The notes under the pieces are model-generated. The model did not search any database. It had not been told where the DNA came from and saw nothing but the letters and a program-made list of their open reading frames with translations. Source: an uncultured Synergistales bacterium (GTDB lineage Bacteria > Synergistota > Synergistia > Synergistales > Aminobacteriaceae). From it: 36,739 nt of DNA. The stretch is taken from NCBI GenBank assembly GCA_905233565.1, contig CAJOCL010000007.1:1-36739 (forward strand), written 5' to 3'. The position numbers and the translations under genes are program-made. Below are positions 3,041 through 20,054 of this stretch, piece after piece (within the stretch, counting starts at the first letter, position 1; the number at the start of each line of letters is the position of its first letter).

Positions 3041-3844
3041 TCACCTGAAAATCATAATCAATATATTTATGACAATAAGAACGGCGCATATTCCCGAAAG
3101 CCCTGCGGAAATTTTCAGGAGTTTTTCGCTGCCTGCCTCACGGCCTGAATTAACGCCGTCTGAAATCCCTTCAAGTTCACCTGTTACGGCCTCTTTGACT
3201 TCATGAATTAAAGCTATATTATTCTGTTCCGTCATGGCCGAAATTTCGCGTGAAAGTTCCTCAAGTTCTTTGCTGTGCGACGTATTCCCGGCTCTGATAA
3301 GCCCTTCAAGTCCTGAAATGGCTTCGCTTTCAATTGCTGAACCTGAAGGAGGAATGACAGAATTTAGATTTGCGGTTGATAACTGCTCGATCTGTGATGC
3401 GTAAGTTTCAAAAAATGCCTTTATTCCCTGTGTCAAAGCGTCAATACGTTCTGAAATCCCTTCAAGTTCATTCAATATATTTTCGCTGTTGCTGTTGTAG
3501 TCGGGAATAATTTCAGGCTGATTCGATTTTATGCTTTCAACGTTTTCTTTAACTGTTTCAGGAAGTTTTGAGATTTTGCTTCTTAATTCTGAAATTTCCT
3601 CAATTACGCTTGCTAATGACTGCATGATCATACTGCGCCCGGCTCGTGAATCGTCAATCGCTGAACGGAGAGCCTTCTCAATTCCTGAACGCAATTCCTG
3701 AGATGTCCTGTTATTACGTTCAAGGACGGCGGAAAAATCATTAACAGGTATTGCACCGGCCAGAGACTTTGTCAATGACGGCAGAATCAAAGCAGATAAT
3801 TCAGAAACTAAACGCGCTGTAGTAGGGTCTAAATCTTCAGGCAT
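3041..3844 (-). CDS. Tail-anchored coiled-coil protein, unknown function
   Basis: Protein of 267 residues that I cannot assign to a family. It has no signal peptide. Most of it is predicted helix with heptad-like spacing (about 60-110, and 140-235 with EELSREISAM and similar). It ends in a single hydrophobic segment (about 243-264, ICAVLIVINILIMIF) with one basic residue after it, so it is probably a membrane protein anchored by its tail with the body in the cytoplasm. It lies directly upstream of ileS on the same strand and diverges from hemC. An extended -10 sits 39-44 bases before its start. Such architecture suits a scaffold or chemotaxis-like signalling helper, but nothing in the sequence proves that. 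Confidence 0.7.
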   Translation of the reverse strand: MPEDLDPTTARLVSELSALILPSLTKSLAGAIPVNDFSAVLERNNRTSQELRSGIEKALRSAIDDSRAGRSMIMQSLASVIEEISELRSKISKLPETVKENVESIKSNQPEIIPDYNSNSENILNELEGISERIDALTQGIKAFFETYASQIEQLSTANLNSVIPPSGSAIESEAISGLEGLIRAGNTSHSKELEELSREISAMTEQNNIALIHEVKEAVTGELEGISDGVNSGREAGSEKLLKISAGLSGICAVLIVINILIMIFR

Positions 3845-3882
3845 GATAAAATTTTCAGCTCCGTACTAAAATTAATGCAGTT

Positions 3883-3891
3883 AGTATAGCA
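3883..3891 (-). promoter_or_regulatory. Extended -10 promoter for the 3844-ileS transcript
   Basis: The minus strand reads TGCTATACT, an extended -10 (TGn plus TATACT), about 40 bases before the start codon at 3844. I see no convincing -35. Confidence 0.45.
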
Positions 3892-3914
3892 AAGTAAATG
3901 AAAGGTGAACGAAA

Positions 3915-4766
3915 ATAATAATAAAAATCGGCACAAGGTCAAGCCCTCTTGCAGTAGCACAGGCAGAAATAATCGCAGAAAGAATAAAAAGCGTTGCTGA
4001 AGCAGAAATCGAAATCATAAAAATTTCAGTCTCAGGCGACAAAAATATGTCAGCTTTCAGCTCTGACCCTTCAGGAATAAAAGGGATGTTTACTTTTGAG
4101 ATTGAACAGGCATTGTCAGACGGCGTTATTGATATAGCCGTACACAGTCTCAAAGACATGCCGGTAAACGTAAATCCCAATCTGCCGATAATTGCATACT
4201 CACGCAGGGGGAACCCGTTCGATTCACTTGTAATGGGAAAAAATAATAATAATGTAATCGGCTCATCATCGTTAAGACGCTGCCTTCAAATTTCGAGGCT
4301 TTATAAAAATATTGAAGTCAGGCCGGTAAGGGGCAATATAGGAACGAGATTAAAGCGTCTGGACAACGGCGAATATTCAGGGCTGGTTCTTGCTGCCTGC
4401 GGTCTTGAACGTCTCGGGCTTAATGAAAGAATAACGAAAATTTTCACGCCTGATGAGATTATGCCGGCACCGTGTCAGGGGATTTTAGCGTGTCAGGGCA
4501 GAAGAGATAAAAATTACTCGTGGATTGAGGCAGTAAATGATGAAAATTCGAGGGATTGTGCTTTGTCTGAACGCAGTTTTTCGCGTCAGCTCGGCGCGGG
4601 CTGTAACATTCCTGCCGGCGCTTATGCTGAAGTTCAAGGGGATATTTTAACGTTAAGAGGGCTTTATATTGATTCTTCAGGGAATTTTCATAAGGGAACT
4701 TTAACGGGAAGACGCAGCGAAGCCGAAATTATAGGCCGTGAACTGGCTGAAAAGATTATGAGGTGA
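3915..4766 (+). CDS. hemC: Porphobilinogen deaminase with a non-standard or frameshifted start
   Basis: Hydroxymethylbilane synthase, which polymerises four porphobilinogens in tetrapyrrole synthesis. Conserved segments are IKIGTRSSPLAVAQ at the N-terminus, HSLKDMP, SSSLRR, PVRGNIGTR and the cofactor-binding Cys in GAGCNIPAGA (Cys230 counted from 3915). The only in-frame ATG (4047) would delete the conserved first 44 residues, so it is not the true start. Upstream the frame is closed by TGA at 3906-3908, and the codons between are ACG, AAA and three ATAs. AAAGGTGA at 3901-3908 lies 6 bases before the first ATA (3915), a good Shine-Dalgarno spacing. Alternatively ATG 3898 reads six codons to a TAA and needs a -1 shift on AAAA, or the true sequence has one more A. 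From 3915 it is 283 residues, slightly short of the usual 300-310. Confidence 0.85.
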   Translation: MIIKIGTRSSPLAVAQAEIIAERIKSVAEAEIEIIKISVSGDKNMSAFSSDPSGIKGMFTFEIEQALSDGVIDIAVHSLKDMPVNVNPNLPIIAYSRRGNPFDSLVMGKNNNNVIGSSSLRRCLQISRLYKNIEVRPVRGNIGTRLKRLDNGEYSGLVLAACGLERLGLNERITKIFTPDEIMPAPCQGILACQGRRDKNYSWIEAVNDENSRDCALSERSFSRQLGAGCNIPAGAYAEVQGDILTLRGLYIDSSGNFHKGTLTGRRSEAEIIGRELAEKIMR

Positions 4767-4771
4767 TTGAA

Positions 4772-6172
4772 ATGATATATCTTGTCGGAGCAGGGCCGGG
4801 CAGTTATGAATTATTGACATTAAGAGCTTATGAAGTCATAAAGCGTGCTGACGTTGTAATTTTTGACCGTCTGGCAGGAGACGGGGTTTTATCTTTGATT
4901 CCTGAAAGTGCTGAATGTATTGACGCAGGGAAAATTTCGGGCTTTCACAAAATTAATCAGCGTGAAATCGAACGTATTATGATTGAGCGTTCACGCGAAG
5001 GGAAAAATGTAGTCAGGTTAAAGGGCGGAGATCCTTTTTTATTCGGCAGGGGCGGAGAGGAAGCAGAAGCAATCATACGCGCAGGACTGGAATTTGAGAT
5101 TGTTCCGGGCGTAAGTTCCGCGCTCAGCGTTCCGGCATATTCAGGCATTCCGGCAACACACAGGGATTATTGCTCGGGCGTAAATATTTTCACGGCTCAT
5201 GACAAGAACAACATGATACCTGATTTCAATAATACAACGTCAATATTTCTTATGGGCGTTGCAAATTCGTTTGAACTTCAGGAAAAATTATTGCAGTCAA
5301 TGAAACCCGAAACTCCCTGCGCAGTTATTGAAAACGGTACAATGTCATCACAGCGCGTTATAAGATGCAGGCTTTCAGAACTTCATGAAGAAATAATCAG
5401 GAATGCCGTAACCCCCCCTACATTAATAATAGTCGGAAAAACAGCAGAATTAAATCTCAACCGCAGGGAAAATTTACCGCTTAACAAAAAACGAATAATT
5501 ATTACAAGACCTGAAGGGCGCGGGGAAAAACTTTCATTCATGCTTCGTAATTTAGGGGCTGAAGTTATCATGATGCCGGTTATAAAGACCGATACGATTA
5601 AAAAATCTCTTGATGATGTTGAAATTTCGGGATATGACTGGGCAGGCTTCACGAGCGTAACGGGGGTTAATTCACTTATTGAAATTCTGAGAATGACGGG
5701 GCGCGATATCCGTGAACTTGGAAATTCAAAGATTGCCGCAATAGGTTCAGCGACTAAAGAGGCTCTGAATTTTCACGGCCTTAAAACTGATTACGTCCCT
5801 GATATTTTCGACGGGAAAAATCTTGCTGAAGGACTTGTTAAGAGGGGCGGAAAAATACTAATGTTCAGGGCTGAGAACGGAACGCCTGAAATTGATAAAG
5901 TGTTCAGGGAAAATGAAATTTCTTTCAAAAATATTTGTGTTTACAGGATTAATTATGTAAAATTATCACATGTCCCAAATTTTGCAGACATAATAATATT
6001 TACATCGTCTTCAACGGTGAGAGGATTTGCAGAAAACACAGATACACTGCGCGGATCTCTCGCAGTCTGTATAGGTAAACAGACCGCAGACGAGGCATTG
6101 AGGGCAGGTTTCAAAAACATAAGGATTGCGGAACGGGCTGAAGCTGAATCAATCGTTAAAGCCTGTTCGTAA
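4772..6172 (+). CDS. cobA-hemD: Fused uroporphyrinogen-III C-methyltransferase and uroporphyrinogen-III synthase (CobA-HemD)
   Basis: Bifunctional protein of 466 residues. Residues 1 to about 235 are a CobA/SUMT methyltransferase that makes precorrin-2 from uroporphyrinogen III using S-adenosylmethionine: VGAGPG at 5-10, GGDPFLFGRGGEE at 85-97, VPGVSS at 111-116. From about 245 (KKRIIITRPEG) to the end is a HemD-type uroporphyrinogen-III synthase, which closes the ring of the HemC product. Fused with HemC upstream it gives consecutive steps toward siroheme or cobalamin. The ATG at 4772 is preferred because GAGGTGA (4760-4766) lies 5 bases before it; a GTG at 4763, overlapping the hemC stop, is in the same frame. 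Confidence 0.93.
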   Translation: MIYLVGAGPGSYELLTLRAYEVIKRADVVIFDRLAGDGVLSLIPESAECIDAGKISGFHKINQREIERIMIERSREGKNVVRLKGGDPFLFGRGGEEAEAIIRAGLEFEIVPGVSSALSVPAYSGIPATHRDYCSGVNIFTAHDKNNMIPDFNNTTSIFLMGVANSFELQEKLLQSMKPETPCAVIENGTMSSQRVIRCRLSELHEEIIRNAVTPPTLIIVGKTAELNLNRRENLPLNKKRIIITRPEGRGEKLSFMLRNLGAEVIMMPVIKTDTIKKSLDDVEISGYDWAGFTSVTGVNSLIEILRMTGRDIRELGNSKIAAIGSATKEALNFHGLKTDYVPDIFDGKNLAEGLVKRGGKILMFRAENGTPEIDKVFRENEISFKNICVYRINYVKLSHVPNFADIIIFTSSSTVRGFAENTDTLRGSLAVCIGKQTADEALRAGFKNIRIAERAEAESIVKACS

Positions 6173-6206
6173 TATAAATATTTTTGCTACGGAGGTATTA
6201 ATTTTC

Positions 6207-7184
6207 ATGCGTAAAGTTTTAATTTCGTTGTTAATTGTCGTTTTAATATCATCATTTGCTTATGCTGAAGAGACAAAGAAATTTGAGAGCAAGTATCTTG
6301 ATGTTGAACTTACGACAAATCAGGTCAACCTGTACGAGAATATTCCCTTTGCACAGGGTTTCTGGCGCGGTTCAATGATGTACGCCCTGAACATGGATAT
6401 TCTTGTTCCCGACAGCAAAGAGCCTCTGCCGTTAATCGTGTTCGTAACGGGCGGAGGGTTTATCATGGCTCCGAAGAACAACTGGATACAGCAGAGAATG
6501 AGACTTGCACAGGCCGGTTACGTTGTTGCCAGCATTGAATACAGGTATGCGCCTCTGTCAAAGTTTCCGCTTCCTTTGGAGGACTGCAAGACGGCTATAC
6601 GCTGGCTGAGGGCTCATGCTGACATGTACAGGATTGACCCTAACCGCGTCGGCATTCTCGGCAACAGTGCAGGCGGTTATCTTTCGGCATTTGTCGGACT
6701 TACTAACGGGATGAAGGAGTTTGACAAGGGCGATTTCCTTGATTATTCAAGCGATGTGTTATGTGCTGCCGATATATTCGGAATTTCAGATATAACTAAC
6801 ATCGGAATGGATTACGACGAGGAAAACCAGAAGGGCCATGCTTCAGCCGGAGCAACTGAGGCACTTTGGGCATTGGGTACGCCGACTTTTGGCGGAAAAG
6901 ACGGCGGAGTTCTCGCGCACCCCGAAGAATCAGCATATGCCAGCCCCATAACTTATGTCGAAAAGAACGCAGGAAAACTCGTTCCCATGCTGCTTATGCA
7001 CGGAACAAAAGACGTTCTCGTTTCGCCCTCACAGACGGATATACTCTATCAGGCACTGAAAGCAAAGGGAGTTGAGGCCGAACGCTATGTAGTTAATAAC
7101 GCAGCTCACGGCGGGCCGTACTGGGTTCAGGAGCCTGTAATGAAGATAATGGTTGATTTCTTTGACAAATATTTGAAAAAATAG
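6207..7184 (+). CDS. Exported alpha/beta-hydrolase (esterase/lipase family)
   Basis: Secreted serine hydrolase of 325 residues. The start is set by GGAGGT at 6191-6196; an in-frame ATG further up, inside cobA-hemD, is not needed. Residues 1-20 form a signal peptide ending SSFAYA, so export through Sec is expected. The family's oxyanion region appears as VTGGGFI (80-86), the nucleophile elbow as GNSAGG (Ser154), the acid in HGTKDV (Asp268 or Asp269 region) and the catalytic His in NAAHGG (His301). This matches BD-FAE/acetyl-esterase-type enzymes that remove acyl groups from polysaccharides or small esters; the true substrate cannot be read. A terminator follows directly. Confidence 0.88.
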   Translation: MRKVLISLLIVVLISSFAYAEETKKFESKYLDVELTTNQVNLYENIPFAQGFWRGSMMYALNMDILVPDSKEPLPLIVFVTGGGFIMAPKNNWIQQRMRLAQAGYVVASIEYRYAPLSKFPLPLEDCKTAIRWLRAHADMYRIDPNRVGILGNSAGGYLSAFVGLTNGMKEFDKGDFLDYSSDVLCAADIFGISDITNIGMDYDEENQKGHASAGATEALWALGTPTFGGKDGGVLAHPEESAYASPITYVEKNAGKLVPMLLMHGTKDVLVSPSQTDILYQALKAKGVEAERYVVNNAAHGGPYWVQEPVMKIMVDFFDKYLKK

Positions 7185-12898: not shown

Positions 12899-13517
12899 AA
12901 TAAAAGAAATAAAGAAAGAAAAAATTTTCACGAATGCCCGGATTGAGGCCACATGCTTTAATCCGGGTCAGCTTATCCCCGAAGATATTAACATTCAGGA
13001 AATCGCGGTTGCCGGACGCTCAAACGTAGGCAAATCATCGCTTATAAATGCCCTTCTCAATGCAAAACTCGCAAAGACGGGGCAAACTCCGGGAAAAACA
13101 AGAAGCATAAATTTTTACCGTGTTGAAAGTCCTAAAGTCATTTTCAGACTTGTTGACCTTCCCGGCTACGGTTACGCTAAACGCAGCAGGGACGAGCGCA
13201 ACGAATGGCAGAGATTAATCAGTGCTTACATGAGAAAAAGGGAAAGTTTAAGGCTTGTTCTGCACCTTGTCGATTTCCGTCACGGCCTTCTGAAAAATGA
13301 CAGGGATTTACAGGAATGGATCAGGGCTGAAGGCAAAAATATATTCGTAGTCTTCACTAAGGCCGACAAGATCGCAAAAGGAAAATGGAAAACTACACGC
13401 GATTTATACATCAGGGACGGGCTTTACTCGTATGATGTCCCTGTAATAACGTCAGCAGAAAAGAAAGAGGGAATTGACCCACTTGGGGAGTTTCTCATTA
13501 AGTTTCTGGAAATGTGA
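12891..13517 (+). CDS. engB: Ribosome-biogenesis GTPase EngB/YsxC
   Basis: TRAFAC GTPase of 208 residues needed for 50S subunit assembly. G1 is GRSNVGKSS (42-50), G2 lies in GQTPGKT (64-70), G3 is DLPG (89-92), G4 is TKAD (156-159) and G5 is the TSAEKK segment near 185. The start overlaps the end of clpX. Its TGA stop (13515-13517) is shared with the extended -10 of the next transcript, so the downstream gene has its own promoter here. Confidence 0.96.
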
Positions 13518-13523
13518 TATAAT
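13515..13523 (+). promoter_or_regulatory. Extended -10 promoter before the leader of the surface-protein gene
   Basis: TGATATAAT is a consensus extended -10. The TG is part of the engB stop codon. No good -35 is seen, which is usual for extended -10 promoters. The same nonamer precedes rpsB (15649) and the gene at 34528. Confidence 0.6.
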
Positions 13524-13587
13524 CACAATGTAATAATTAAAATTCAGCGAACATCAACTAAAAATCAGTAGAAAGGACGTAGACAAA

Positions 13588-13659
13588 ATGATTTCAGGCG
13601 GCTACAATCGAGCCACGAGCCACGAGCCACGAGCCACGCTACAACTATGTTCTGATTGA
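13588..13659 (+). CDS. Leader ORF containing four heptamer repeats, possible phase-variable leader peptide
   Basis: ORF of 23 codons (MISGGYN at the start, LQLCSD at the end) with AAAGGA 10 bases before its ATG. It contains the repeat tract at 13609-13636. The frame one base away, beginning at 13640, is open for 45 codons (YNYVLIDAEKLN...), runs through the terminator and ends with TAG at 13775-13777, inside the start of the next gene. With three repeats instead of four, the ORF would enter that frame. No homologue is recognised; the ORF may be a leader peptide or the remnant of a small gene. Confidence 0.45.
   Translation: MISGGYNRATSHEPRATLQLCSD
13609..13636 (+). repeat. Four tandem copies of CGAGCCA
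   Basis: Four perfect 7-bp copies, followed by a partial CG. Because 7 is not a multiple of 3, gain or loss of a copy by replication slippage changes the reading frame of the ORF that spans it. The tract is flanked by GGCTACAA and GCTACAA, as if it had been inserted into a GGCTACAACTAT sequence. Confidence 0.9.
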
Positions 13660-13686
13660 CGCTGAAAAACTGAATACTGAGACCAA

Positions 13687-13735
13687 CGCTCTCACGTTTG
13701 GCAGAATGTTGCTTGAACGTGAGGGCGATTTTTTT
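13687..13735 (+). terminator. Strong intrinsic terminator in the leader of the surface-protein gene
   Basis: A 12-bp stem (CGCTCTCACGTT and AACGTGAGGGCG, one G-T pair) with a 17-nt loop is followed by ATTTTTTT. It ends only about 23 bases before the start codon at 13759, with no room for another promoter between. Transcripts from upstream must therefore read through it to express that gene, so it is likely an attenuator as well as the end of the clp operon transcript. Confidence 0.75.
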
Positions 13736-13758
13736 ATGTCGAAAGGAGACGTATACTC

Positions 13759-15591
13759 ATGGTCAAAAAAGTTTTAGCGTGTTTATTGTTAGTAGTGTTG
13801 TGGAGTTCTTGTGCGTTCGGTGAAGTTACTCTGTCTCATATTCACCGCTCCATTACGGATTTTGTGAATGGGAAGCCGGATTACACAAACGCGAGATTTC
13901 TGAGTTTCTGGGTTGGCGCAACAAATTATGACGCTCAGGCAACTCAGGAAGATGTGAATCTCACGGGCAGTATGACATTCTCAGGCGGCAGTTATTCCTT
14001 CTGGAACGGCAGAAACGGCGGTATGCTGACAAACTCAGAGACTCAGCGCACGTTCGGGCTTGCAAGCGTAATGAGCATAGGTAACGAGCTTGAGTATGTG
14101 CCGCACACAGCGAGCGGGGACAACATAATTTTCTGTCTTTCTGCTGACAACGGACTCAACGGCGTAAATGTCAGCTGGAATTTTCCCGATATGCCGTCCT
14201 ATAACGGGCAGGGTACAATTCCGAATTACAGAACGACTCAGGAGCAGTTAGAGTCGTATGTACCTTACGTTGAATATATCAGCTTAGGAAGTCAAGTTAC
14301 GGGGCTTAGGTGGCGCGTAGTGAGTCCCGATAACACTTCAGAGGCAGTAACGCTTGATTTTGCGTCATCTTTACGTGTAATAAGCGTTCAGAATGCAAGC
14401 GGAAATACTTTGTATTCAGGCCAGTGGGAATATGTCGAGGCTGACAATCCTGTTTCAGGTGAGGTAACATTTGACAGCCCGATTAGTGAAGCCGATATAT
14501 CAAGGATACGTGTTGGCTTCTATTACTGGAACAACGATTCTGATAACGACTATCAGTGGTACTTCTGCAAGCCGTCAACGCCAGAGCTTTCGATCACTGA
14601 GAATTTTATGTTCAACGCTTCAATCGTGAACGGAAAAGCCAATTACAGCAATGCGAGGTTTGAATCGCTTTTCTTTGACATTTCTGCGGGGAACGTAATA
14701 GCGGAAGCCCGTCATTTCACGGCAGAAGGAAGCGTAACAATACCCGGCGGAGGCTACAGCCTTATGGACGACAACACAGGCGAAGAACTCGGCGTAACGA
14801 TTCCGGCAGGCACGGACAAGACATTCAAGCTGAGAATGCACAGAACCTCAGCTCCCGGCGATACTCATCTTGAATATCAGCCTATATATGACAACGGAGC
14901 AAACCTCACATTTTCGGGCGGAGGGGAAAATCTTGCGGGCAGGACTATAACATGGACATTCCCGGCAGAACTCAATCTCAGCGGAAGCGCAGCACTAAGC
15001 AACTTCAAATCAACATCTGAACAGTTAGCAACAGGCGCGCCATATTTCGAGATTGTCAGCAGGGACGGAAATATTACAGCTATCAACTACAAGATTGTTA
15101 CTTCATCAGACACTTCAACCGCTGTAACTCCGTCATACAGGACTGATTTCAGAATTGAATATTACCGCATAAATCCTGATCCTGCTGAAGGTAACAGATA
15201 CCGCTCAAGCTGGATTAACAACAGCACTTCAGGAACGTGGACACTCGGCAACCCGCAGCCATTGAGCAACATGGACTACATGACAGTGCGCTATAGGACT
15301 TGGGAAGATCCGAACAACTCAAGGCAATATGTCTGGAACTTCTACCCCGCCGAAGCCCCTACAAACCCCAATCAGCAAGAAAATCAGCAGGGAAATGAGC
15401 AGGGCAATCAGCAGGAAAATGAACAGGGCAATCAGCAGGAAAATGAACAGAACAATCAGTCTAACAATCAACAGGACAATCAACAAGACAATCAGCAGGT
15501 AGGTATCGGTCCAGGAACCAGCGGAGGCTGTGAGTCAGGTCTTGCGCTGTCAGGTGTAATTCTTCTGGCGCTCTTCTTCAAAAAACGTTAA
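13759..15591 (+). CDS. Surface protein with duplicated domain and Synerg-CTERM sorting signal
   Basis: Exported protein of 610 residues. Residues 1-21 form a signal peptide (VKKVLACLLLVVLW, then CAFG). Two related domains follow, about 27-262 and 278-520. Both show (V/I)NGK.(D/N)Y.NARF near the start, a GSMTF/GSVTI strand with GG.YS, a LEY.P segment, then a (Y/F)(R/K)(T/S)T.EQL stretch and a closing W. Residues about 535-590 are a Gln/Asn/Glu-rich linker built from short repeats. The end, SGGCESGLALSG plus a hydrophobic run and KKR, has the Cys, membrane segment and basic tail of the Synerg-CTERM family, whose members are thought to be processed and anchored at the surface. AAAGGAG lies 9 bases before the start. 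The function of the domains is unknown; adhesion or glycan binding is a guess. Confidence 0.85.
   Translation: MVKKVLACLLLVVLWSSCAFGEVTLSHIHRSITDFVNGKPDYTNARFLSFWVGATNYDAQATQEDVNLTGSMTFSGGSYSFWNGRNGGMLTNSETQRTFGLASVMSIGNELEYVPHTASGDNIIFCLSADNGLNGVNVSWNFPDMPSYNGQGTIPNYRTTQEQLESYVPYVEYISLGSQVTGLRWRVVSPDNTSEAVTLDFASSLRVISVQNASGNTLYSGQWEYVEADNPVSGEVTFDSPISEADISRIRVGFYYWNNDSDNDYQWYFCKPSTPELSITENFMFNASIVNGKANYSNARFESLFFDISAGNVIAEARHFTAEGSVTIPGGGYSLMDDNTGEELGVTIPAGTDKTFKLRMHRTSAPGDTHLEYQPIYDNGANLTFSGGGENLAGRTITWTFPAELNLSGSAALSNFKSTSEQLATGAPYFEIVSRDGNITAINYKIVTSSDTSTAVTPSYRTDFRIEYYRINPDPAEGNRYRSSWINNSTSGTWTLGNPQPLSNMDYMTVRYRTWEDPNNSRQYVWNFYPAEAPTNPNQQENQQGNEQGNQQENEQGNQQENEQNNQSNNQQDNQQDNQQVGIGPGTSGGCESGLALSGVILLALFFKKR
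15379..15500 (+). repeat. Gln/Asn-rich coding repeats
   Basis: The linker is encoded by degenerate short repeats built on AATCAGCAGGAAAATGAACA. One 24-bp unit occurs twice in tandem at 15403-15450. The unit length is a multiple of three, so copy-number change would alter linker length and not frame. Confidence 0.8.
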
Positions 15592-17513: not shown

Positions 17514-17535
17514 CATAAAGGGAGGCTGATACTTT

Positions 17536-18247
17536 ATGTCGAAATACAAGCGTATATTACTTAAATTATCGGGTGAAGTCCTTTCGGGCAGCAACGAAAA
17601 TCACGTTGGAATAAATTTCGATACTGTTAAGGATTTTGCAGTTAAACTCGCAGAAATAAGAAATTCAGGGATTGAACTTTCGTTAGTTATCGGCGGGGGG
17701 TAACTTCCGTGATACTGAAAACTCAGGGATTGAACGTGTAAAACTTGACTCAATCGGAATGCTGGGTACGGTAATGAACGCTTTGGCCGTTAAATTTGCC
17801 CTCGAAAAAATCAATGTTCCGGCGAAAGTTTTATCTGCTGTCGGAATGCTGCCCGTTGCTGAACTGTATAACCGTGAACGTGCAATCGAATTGTTAAAGG
17901 CAGGCAATGTCGTATTATTCGCGGCAGGAACAGGACACCCGTTTTTTTCGACCGATACGGCGGCGGCACTCAGAGCGGCGGAATTAGGGCTTGACTGCGT
18001 TATTAAAGGGACAAAGGTTGACGGCATATACGACAAAGATCCGAATAAACATAAAGACGCTGTTTTATTCCCTGAACTGACATACAGCGAGGCAATCAGC
18101 AGGAATCTTGAAGTTATGGACACTGCGGCTTTTGCTTTGTGCCGTGAAAATAAAATCCCTGTCTGGGTAATGAGCATAAATAAGCCTGACTGGGTAAAGA
18201 ATATAATAGAAGGTGTAAAAATCGGAACAATCGTAAAGGAGGACTGA
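17536..18247 (+). CDS. pyrH: UMP kinase, reading frame broken by one extra G
   Basis: Amino-acid-kinase family enzyme that phosphorylates UMP to UDP; essential in most bacteria. The first 55 codons from ATG 17536 ([14 protein letters not shown]...) end SLVIGGG and then meet TAA at 17701-17703. The remaining sequence continues one base later as NFRDTENSG, then [29 protein letters not shown], and [13 protein letters not shown], and ends at 18247. Together they give about 236 residues, the normal length. The break falls in a run of six G (17695-17700). One G fewer restores the frame as GGG-GGT-AAC (Gly-Gly-Asn). GGGAGG before the start and the position between tsf and frr are as expected. Sequencing indel, recent mutation and +1 frameshifting at GGG-TAA-C are all possible. 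Confidence 0.85.
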
Positions 18248-18253
18248 ACATCA

Positions 18254-18811
18254 ATGCCGAAAGATGAACTTGCGGAACTTCGCGCCAATATGGAAAAAGC
18301 AATATCATTCCTTCAGAATGAATACATGTCGATACGTACAGGAAGGGCACATCCGGGACTTGTCAGCGACATTAAGGTGGATTATTACGGAACGCCGACA
18401 CCGATAAAGAACCTGGCAAGCGTAACCATACCCGAAAGCCGCTCGATACAGGTTGCGCCGTTCGATAAGACAGTGTTAAAAGCTATGGAGAAGGCCATAC
18501 TTGCTGCAAATATCGGAATGACCCCGCAGAGTGACGGCACAGTGATACGCATGACACTGCCGGAACTGACAAAGGCGAGGCGCGTTGAATTAACGAAACT
18601 TCTTGCGCGTAAAGCTGAAGAGTCAAAAGTAGTAGTCAGGAATTACAGGCGCGATACAATCGAGGCCCTCAAGAAACAGGAAAAGGCTTCAGAAATAACG
18701 GAAGATGACCTGAAAAAATTCACTAAGGACGTACAGGACATTACGGACAATTACGTGAAAAAGATTGATGAGGTCTACAAGATTAAGGAGAAGGAAGTCC
18801 TTGAGGACTGA
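18254..18811 (+). CDS. frr: Ribosome recycling factor
   Basis: Protein of 185 residues that, with EF-G, splits ribosomes after termination. Conserved segments are IRTGRAHP (about 27-34), VDYYGTPTPIKNLASV, the SRSIQVAPFDK region, and RKAEESKVVVRNYRRD. Full length. It starts 6 bases after pyrH, with AAAGGAGG before the ATG, and ends the translation cluster. Confidence 0.97.
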   Translation: MPKDELAELRANMEKAISFLQNEYMSIRTGRAHPGLVSDIKVDYYGTPTPIKNLASVTIPESRSIQVAPFDKTVLKAMEKAILAANIGMTPQSDGTVIRMTLPELTKARRVELTKLLARKAEESKVVVRNYRRDTIEALKKQEKASEITEDDLKKFTKDVQDITDNYVKKIDEVYKIKEKEVLED

Positions 18812-18855
18812 GACGGACTTTGTATATTTTGAATTAAAAAGGAGGAGTTACTGAA

Positions 18856-19662
18856 ATGGCAGACGAAGTTAGCCAGTACAATTCACCGGGTTACACAACG
18901 TTTAAGATGAAGCTGAAAAGATTAATCGGCATAGATCTTAACTCGTACAAAGAACAGATTCACAGGAGAACTCATGAGCTTATGTCCCGCTGGGGCTGCA
19001 AAACTTATGACGATTATTATGACATGATGAGCAAAGATGAGAAGAAATTACGCGAATTTCTCGATCATCTGACGATAAACGTCTCTGAATTTTTCAGGAA
19101 TGACTCACAGTGGTGGAAGCTCCGCGATAAAATTATTCCCGAATTAATCCAGAAGCGCGGTTCAAAACGCCTCAAGCTCTGGAGTGCCGGCTGTGCAACA
19201 GGAGAAGAGCCGTATTCACTCGCTATACTCTCGGCAGTCTGCGGACTTGACACGATGAATCCAGTTTTAGCCGCCGATGTCGATCAGGGTGCAATATCAC
19301 TGGCTCAAAAGGCAAATTACCGCAAAGCCCAGTTATTAAACGTCCCTAAAGAATATTTATCGCGTTTCTTTACTACTAAGGACGGCGGAACAACTTACGA
19401 TGTCAACCCCGAAATAAAGCGCAGAGTTTCATTCAAGCGCATGAACATGATCGAAGACCCGTTCGGCGCAAATTATGACATAATCTTATGCCGTAACGTC
19501 GTAATTTATTTCACGGCTGACACAAAGGACAAGTTATATCATAAATTCTATGATGCTTTGGCACCGGGCGGCTATTTCCTCGTGGGTTCAACCGAACAGA
19601 TTTTCGGCTATCAGCAGATCGGCTTCATTTCAGCGGGGCCGTTCCTTTACACAAAGAAATAA
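18856..19662 (+). CDS. cheR: Chemotaxis protein methyltransferase CheR
   Basis: S-adenosylmethionine-dependent methyltransferase of 268 residues that methylates glutamates on chemoreceptors. The N-terminal helical domain is followed by LTINVSEFFR (72-81), the SAM-binding SAGCATGEEPYSLAI (110-124), the DIILCRNVVIYF segment (about 215-226) and GGYFLVGSTEQI (about 243-254). AAAAGGAGGA lies before its ATG. No receptor, cheB or other chemotaxis gene is nearby, so it acts on proteins encoded elsewhere; its place after frr may be incidental. Confidence 0.94.
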   Translation: MADEVSQYNSPGYTTFKMKLKRLIGIDLNSYKEQIHRRTHELMSRWGCKTYDDYYDMMSKDEKKLREFLDHLTINVSEFFRNDSQWWKLRDKIIPELIQKRGSKRLKLWSAGCATGEEPYSLAILSAVCGLDTMNPVLAADVDQGAISLAQKANYRKAQLLNVPKEYLSRFFTTKDGGTTYDVNPEIKRRVSFKRMNMIEDPFGANYDIILCRNVVIYFTADTKDKLYHKFYDALAPGGYFLVGSTEQIFGYQQIGFISAGPFLYTKK

Positions 19663-19691
19663 TATCGGAATAATACGGGATTTGAGACGCA

Positions 19692-20054
19692 ATGTATGAA
19701 TTTTCCCTGACTAATTCCGTGAACAATGCGCTGCAGAGTTTATGCAGGCAGACAGGTTGGAGCAGGGTACGCCGCGTTATGATAAAAGTAGGCGGGCTGT
19801 GCAAGGTGAACCCGGAGTTAATGGCGTTCATTTTCGCGGCCGTCTCGAAAGATACTCCGGCTGAAGGTGCCCTGCTCTCCGTCATGATGCTGCCCGTAAC
19901 GTTAAGGTGTTATTCATGCGGGAAAATTTCAGCGCGCGAAGATTCGGAATTATTATGCCCTTTATGCGGCAGCAAAAACGTTCAGATAATATCAGGTCAG
20001 GAGCTTTCAATTGAAGCTCTTGAAGTAGAAGGCAATATTTTTAACCATGAATAA
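19692..20054 (+). CDS. HypA-like nickel metallochaperone lacking the N-terminal His
   Basis: Protein of 120 residues with the HypA/HybF layout: a conserved N-terminal region, a central strand domain, and a zinc site made by CYSC (Cys73, Cys76) and CPLC (Cys89, Cys92). HypA proteins begin Met-His-Glu, and the His at position 2 binds nickel for hydrogenase or urease assembly. Here the start is Met-Tyr-Glu-Phe-Ser-Leu, so that ligand is missing. No hydrogenase or other hyp gene is in the window. The last 8 bases overlap the helicase gene. It may use another metal, or be a family member with a different role. Confidence 0.75.
   Translation: MYEFSLTNSVNNALQSLCRQTGWSRVRRVMIKVGGLCKVNPELMAFIFAAVSKDTPAEGALLSVMMLPVTLRCYSCGKISAREDSELLCPLCGSKNVQIISGQELSIEALEVEGNIFNHE

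Follow-up and report, generated by a model that had tools for sequence, protein, structure and literature searches.

Probable AUA initiation of hemC in a Synergistaceae genome, and apparent AUU/AUA start codons shared across its genus at trmD, DUF1015 and mazG

The hemC locus

The window, meaning the whole stretch of 36,739 nucleotides that was analysed, is the beginning of contig C7 of G000, a Synergistaceae MAG (2.02 Mb, 34 contigs, 96.5% complete). Goat reticulum and rumen were the source of three named relatives, all Synergistaceae MAGs, and G000 itself is presumably of rumen origin. The features around the start of hemC are as follows.

3041..3844, minus strand: divergent gene upstream of hemC, whose sole match, CorA, is below Pfam's cut-off
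3898..3918, plus strand: out-of-frame mini-ORF ATG...TAA (MKGERK), by direct reading
3900..3908, plus strand: extended Shine-Dalgarno (SD) sequence GAAAGG (3900-3905), continuing into TGA, by direct reading and SD scoring
3906..3908, plus strand: in-frame TGA closing the hemC frame upstream, at -18 relative to 3924, by direct reading
3915..3917, plus strand: ATA, the most likely hemC start codon, at position -9, from comparison
3918..3923, plus strand: two more in-frame ATA codons, possible alternative starts, by direct reading
3915..4766, plus strand: hemC coding sequence (hydroxymethylbilane synthase) from proposed start to stop, by reading and profile matches
4772..6172, plus strand: next gene, a cobA-hemD fusion with an ATG start (PF00590, PF02602), which served as the same-locus control

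The protein is a full-length HemC, matched from residue 1 by TIGR00212 with 265.5 bits (cut-off 164) and also by PF01379 and PF03900. Direct reading of its frame gives TGA (3906), ACG (3909), AAA (3912), ATA (3915), ATA (3918), ATA (3921), AAA (3924), ATC GGC ACA AGG TCA. In the letters of the window there is no ATG, GTG or TTG between the upstream in-frame stop and the conserved HemC N-terminus, and the reading frame first offers one at ATG 4047, 41 codons inside the conserved region. A preliminary description of this DNA had claimed that hemC lacks a usable ATG, GTG or TTG start, and that TGA 3906-3908 closes the frame with only ACG, AAA and ATA codons before the N-terminus at 3924; our letter-by-letter reading confirmed both statements. 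In another frame, ATG AAA GGT GAA CGA AAA TAA can be read from 3898 (TAA at 3916-3918), and we judge this mini-ORF to be a by-product of the AT that precedes the SD sequence.

GAAAGG was the best-scoring SD sequence for ATA 3915, with an aligned spacing of 7, an initiation distance; the complement of the 16S tail used in this scoring was a general one, from which the genome's own may differ. Since the gene upstream is divergent, hemC probably leads its transcript. The stretch AGTATA(A/G)CA was seen by eye upstream of hemC, at 3882-3891 of the window and in many relatives. It is perhaps a -10 element, in which case the hemC leader would be about 20 nt long.

hemC start codons in the genus and beyond

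The genus was sampled with one genome per species (43 genomes). A hemC match was found in 40 of them, and the start was read in 39, G023 being dropped with its N-terminus cut off. Our analysis showed a canonical homologous start in 35 of the 39 genes (TTG 26, ATG 6, GTG 3). The starts of the genus lie 3 to 5 codons ahead of the first conserved residue, and the hemC of G025 has a GTG farther upstream. Three of the 39 genes, those of G000, G006 and G008, have no canonical start codon. The ATA of G000 at -9 aligns with the TTG of G040, G041, G011, G026 and G024. Comparison of starts in relatives had been proposed beforehand as a check, and it agreed with ATA 3915 in position but not in codon, the homologous codon being mostly canonical as counted above. 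The putative AUA start of hemC is a lineage-specific case and is not conserved among orthologs. It is known from one assembly, one genome of the species. In other genera, a canonical codon was present near the start in the 13 hemC genes that were readable by script.

The other two genes without a canonical start have other codons instead of ATA. In G008 (L032), ACG stands in place of the TTG of its sister G031, and G006 (L019) has TTA at -12, ACG at -15 and ATC at -18. As neither shows ATA, loss of the start without use of a near-cognate codon is conceivable. In the HemC tree, a starred clade unites G006, G008 and G031 and excludes G000, the nearest fork of which is open. This indicates at least two losses of the canonical hemC start.

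By eye, an SD-like stretch precedes most hemC starts of the genus, and relatives show GAAGGTGA, GGAGATG, GGAGG and similar sequences. The SD match of G000 is six bases long, which is the commonest length (22/39), so it is not specially strong. At the place of ATG 3898, the relatives carry by eye an SD-like stretch and no start. Of the remaining 38 hemC genes, 5 carry an ATG in the frame of the mini-ORF at -35 to -18, including those of G040, G041 and G002. A conserved leader mini-ORF before hemC was rejected on this count.

Genome scan and control genes

G000 was scanned for coding sequence upstream of the first ATG, GTG or TTG, over 386 kb and later over 786 kb (613 genes, 39% of the genome). 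In the 786 kb, hemC had the top coding-potential score (17.1, the next being 10.7), beyond what chance would give. Four further genes, trmD, mazG, a DUF1015 gene and a lysA-like gene, lacked a canonical start and had ATT or ATA behind an SD sequence. The remaining matches without a start were explained, by eye, by an ordinary start, a break of the frame or masked bases. Near-cognate candidates thus amount to 5 of the 613 scanned genes, which is a floor, because a gene is picked up by the scan only if its first canonical codon is deep within it.

Two of the frame breaks are described here. The frame of pyrH (window 17537-18247) breaks in a G run at about 17694-17700 (...SLVIGGG, then a stop), and a homopolymer error of the assembly is the likely cause. 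In L302 (G000:C5), 13368-15206, minus strand, the ATG upstream of a selB-like frame lies in a different frame, and the selB-like frame extends into masked bases.

No missing start was found among the genus control genes cobA (33 genomes), adk (29), pyrG (30), purA (30) and infC (30). ATG predominated at cobA (ATG 29, GTG 3, TTG 1), adk (29/29 complete loci, L147 being cut off) and pyrG (30/30). TTG was the start of infC in 30/30 loci and of purA in 28/30 (L089-L118; L180-L209). The counts for adk, purA and cobA were made by eye; the script tally for adk and purA picks the canonical codon nearest the motif, which is often internal. TTG is thus normal at infC and purA, a weak start is not peculiar to hemC, and the proposal that TTG initiation sets hemC apart in this genus was rejected. 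A further proposal, that hemC is universally weak and starts with TTG in E. coli, was wrong, as RefSeq has ATG.

Apparent AUU and AUA start codons at trmD, DUF1015 and mazG

The other candidate genes of G000 are located as follows.

L289 (G000:C3), 18513-19673, minus strand: trmD, starting at ATT two bases past an upstream TAG
L223 (G000:C3), 17534-18727, minus strand: DUF1015 gene, with an ATA/ATT start behind GAAAGGA, common to most of the genus
L304 (G000:C6), 19058-19858: mazG, with an ATT start
L289 (G000:C3), 5052-6353, minus strand: lysA-like pyridoxal-dependent decarboxylase, where ATT follows AAGGGGAG and a canonical codon is lacking for 33 codons; G000 only

In trmD, the fourth codon before the motif (I/V)(I/V)TAFPE (position -12) was ATT in 30, ATA in 2, ATG in 2 (G013 and G025) and another codon in 2 (G032 and G034) of 36 genus members, and in 32 of the 36 a canonical codon was absent from the nearest 36 nt. 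Elsewhere in the family, outside the genus, the trmD start was canonical in 25/25, being the same codon in 23 (ATG 13, GTG 10) and lying eight codons upstream in 2; these 25 were read among 33 family genomes with a match, 8 of which were not fetched.

The codon ahead of the conserved Phe in the DUF1015 gene was ATA in 26, ATT in 13 and ATG in 1 of the 40 genes read (41 had a match; G039, cut off, was dropped). The SD sequence was GAAAGGA in 24/40 and GAAGGGA in 9/40. No canonical codon was present within 30 nt in 33 of the 40. Upstream canonical codons were found as ATG at -12 (L243, L268, L269), TTG/ATG at -15 to -24 (L274, L275) and TTG at -21 (L236), so five or six of the ATA/ATT genes may start at a codon other than the near-cognate one. 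Outside the genus, the starts by eye were ATG in 13 and GTG in 2, in the 15 genes readable of 18 fetched (24 in all, 6 not fetched; L258-L260 unreadable by motif).

For mazG, 29 genes were read of the 38 in the genus with a match (9 not fetched), and the aligned codon was ATT in 16, ATA in 9, TTG in 3 and ATG in 1. The ATT of G000, G008 and G031 is shifted by one or two codons. No canonical codon was present within 30 nt of the anchor in 21/29. In 4 of the 25 genes with ATT or ATA, an ATG or TTG lies just upstream (G005, G023, G024, G037), and these four may start at that codon instead; in some genes an ATC precedes the ATA, so that the ATA may not be the exact start codon there. Eight mazG genes read outside the genus had ATG.

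That a single aligned position alternates among ATT, ATA, TTG and ATG suggests a start codon rather than an Ile codon. Moreover, ATC makes up 21.6% of the internal Ile codons of G000, yet it was found at 0 of the 105 aligned codons of trmD, DUF1015 and mazG, which come from related species and are not independent. From these alignments, AUU/AUA initiation at the three genes looks genuine and genus-wide. These shared starts are a stronger result than the AUA of hemC, and they make the AUA reading of hemC credible. No report of genus-wide AUU/AUA start use was found in the open-access literature, searched by title and abstract, among the matches listed.

Initiator tRNA, IF3 and the proposed mechanism

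An initiator tRNA with the anticodon CAU was found by eye in G000, and no unusual initiator tRNA was seen in the sampled 39% of the genome. In the IF3 of the genus, Tyr75 and Arg99 (E. coli numbering) are conserved, and the place of Arg116 is taken by Thr, Gln or Asn in 27/30. This place is basic in the E. coli IF3 chain and in two other solved IF3s. In G000 (96.5% complete), neither infC nor rplT had a match. Since rplT is missing along with infC, one assembly gap is probably likelier than loss of IF3, and the latter was rejected.

Taken together, we consider that hemC is probably translated from the near-cognate AUA at 3915-3917, placed by GAAAGG and read by an ordinary initiator tRNA (probability roughly 0.77). 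The 30S subunit would be positioned by the extended SD sequence, and the CAU anticodon would pair with the AU of AUA, the mismatch at the third base being accepted. The predicted N-terminus of HemC is then fMet-Ile-Ile-Lys-Ile-Gly. Initiation would be weak and the output of HemC low, which may be tolerable, as the enzyme feeds siroheme/cobalamin-type tetrapyrroles. The same device would act at trmD (AUU), mazG (AUU/AUA) and DUF1015 (AUA/AUU) in most species of the genus, where IF3 would limit the use of AUA and AUU. An AUA start behind an SD sequence had been raised earlier as a possibility, and the homologous position, the SD spacing and the genus-wide AUU/AUA codons at trmD, DUF1015 and mazG now support it. 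A bolder reading, which we offer tentatively and hold to be somewhat doubtful, is that the genus has an enlarged set of start codons, with AUU/AUA regular at dozens of genes as a low-output setting on TrmD, MazG, HemC and others, possibly by way of the change in IF3.

Alternative explanations

An assembly or sequencing error, the true sequence having a canonical hemC start, is unlikely in our estimation. The sequence does come from a single MAG, and pyrH of the same window breaks frame inside its G run; however, canonical starts are missing from other genes of the genus in about 30 separate assemblies each, and two apparent frame breaks (pyrH, and selB beside masked bases) were met among the top matches of the 786 kb scan, which was not designed to count them. 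One extra A would join ATG 3898 to hemC, as the preliminary description had pointed out together with a -1 slip. Neither join fared well, since ATG 3898 has no good SD sequence of its own, adjoins GAAAGG, is followed by four As only, and has a counterpart in few relatives. Translation from ATG 3898 could otherwise feed hemC by a slip near CGA AAA T, or by termination at TAA 3916 and re-initiation on the overlapping ATA 3915, and the same-frame ATG of the five relatives counted above (G040, G041 and G002 among them) would fit such a route. However, no slippery heptamer was seen by eye (CGAAAAT only), 33 of the 38 relatives have no such ATG, and no RNA structure of note was found at the hemC start, where folding of the leader is weak (z -0.78), which makes this route highly improbable.

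ACG 3909 is very unlikely to be the start. The ACG of G008 in place of the TTG of G031 would give it a parallel, but the ACG of G000 comes immediately after TGA 3908, which leaves almost no spacer behind the SD sequence, and trmD, mazG and DUF1015 show ATA/ATT. We give equally little weight to the view that the start was lost, leaving a young pseudogene or a reading only from ATG 4047. It would account for the missing canonical codon, but the frame is intact, and identity to the HemC of G015 is 27/41 over the first 41 residues against 165/239 over the rest, which indicates that the part before 4047 is about equally conserved.

Implications and comparison with known systems

Gene finders limited to ATG, GTG and TTG would truncate or mis-start these proteins throughout the genus. 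As trmD, mazG and DUF1015 keep such codons in most of about 30-40 species, the genus offers a natural system for the evolution of start-codon fidelity, and it is suited to asking whether weak starts are selected. AUU/AUA starts have so far been known one gene at a time.

E. coli infC has an AUU start, as read from its sequence, and is thus like the hemC of G000 in its near-cognate AUN start. In E. coli, IF3 limits the start of its own gene. Unlike infC, hemC encodes no initiation factor and so falls outside IF3 autoregulation, and the infC of the genus itself starts with TTG (30/30). Also, unlike programmed -1 frameshift genes, hemC has neither a slippery heptamer nor a conserved upstream start (5/38).

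In 36 groups of prokaryote genomes, one study gives 2 switches to AUU among 68,906 reconstructed AUG, GUG and UUG starts (PMC5622118), a count that may miss switches hidden by annotation. In Borrelia burgdorferi, pncA (BBE22) has a biochemically shown AUU start (PMC13398362); the Synergistaceae genes would resemble it as enzyme genes mis-started in databases because of AUU, with one such gene described there. The closest parallels are those of S. aureus, where AUA starts infC, ccpN and citZ and AUU starts cvfC1 (PMC13009471). There, the infC AUA start was seen by ribosome density, and in poor medium reporters of ccpN, citZ and cvfC1 reached about 10% of the AUG level. For ccpN, citZ and cvfC1 the reported mechanism is the one proposed here for hemC. 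The likeness lies in AUA/AUU behind an SD sequence, with the codon of ccpN and cvfC1 conserved between species and the output reduced. The S. aureus starts were established by ribosome profiling and reporters, unlike the starts proposed here for hemC, trmD, mazG and DUF1015 of Synergistaceae, which are drawn from comparison.
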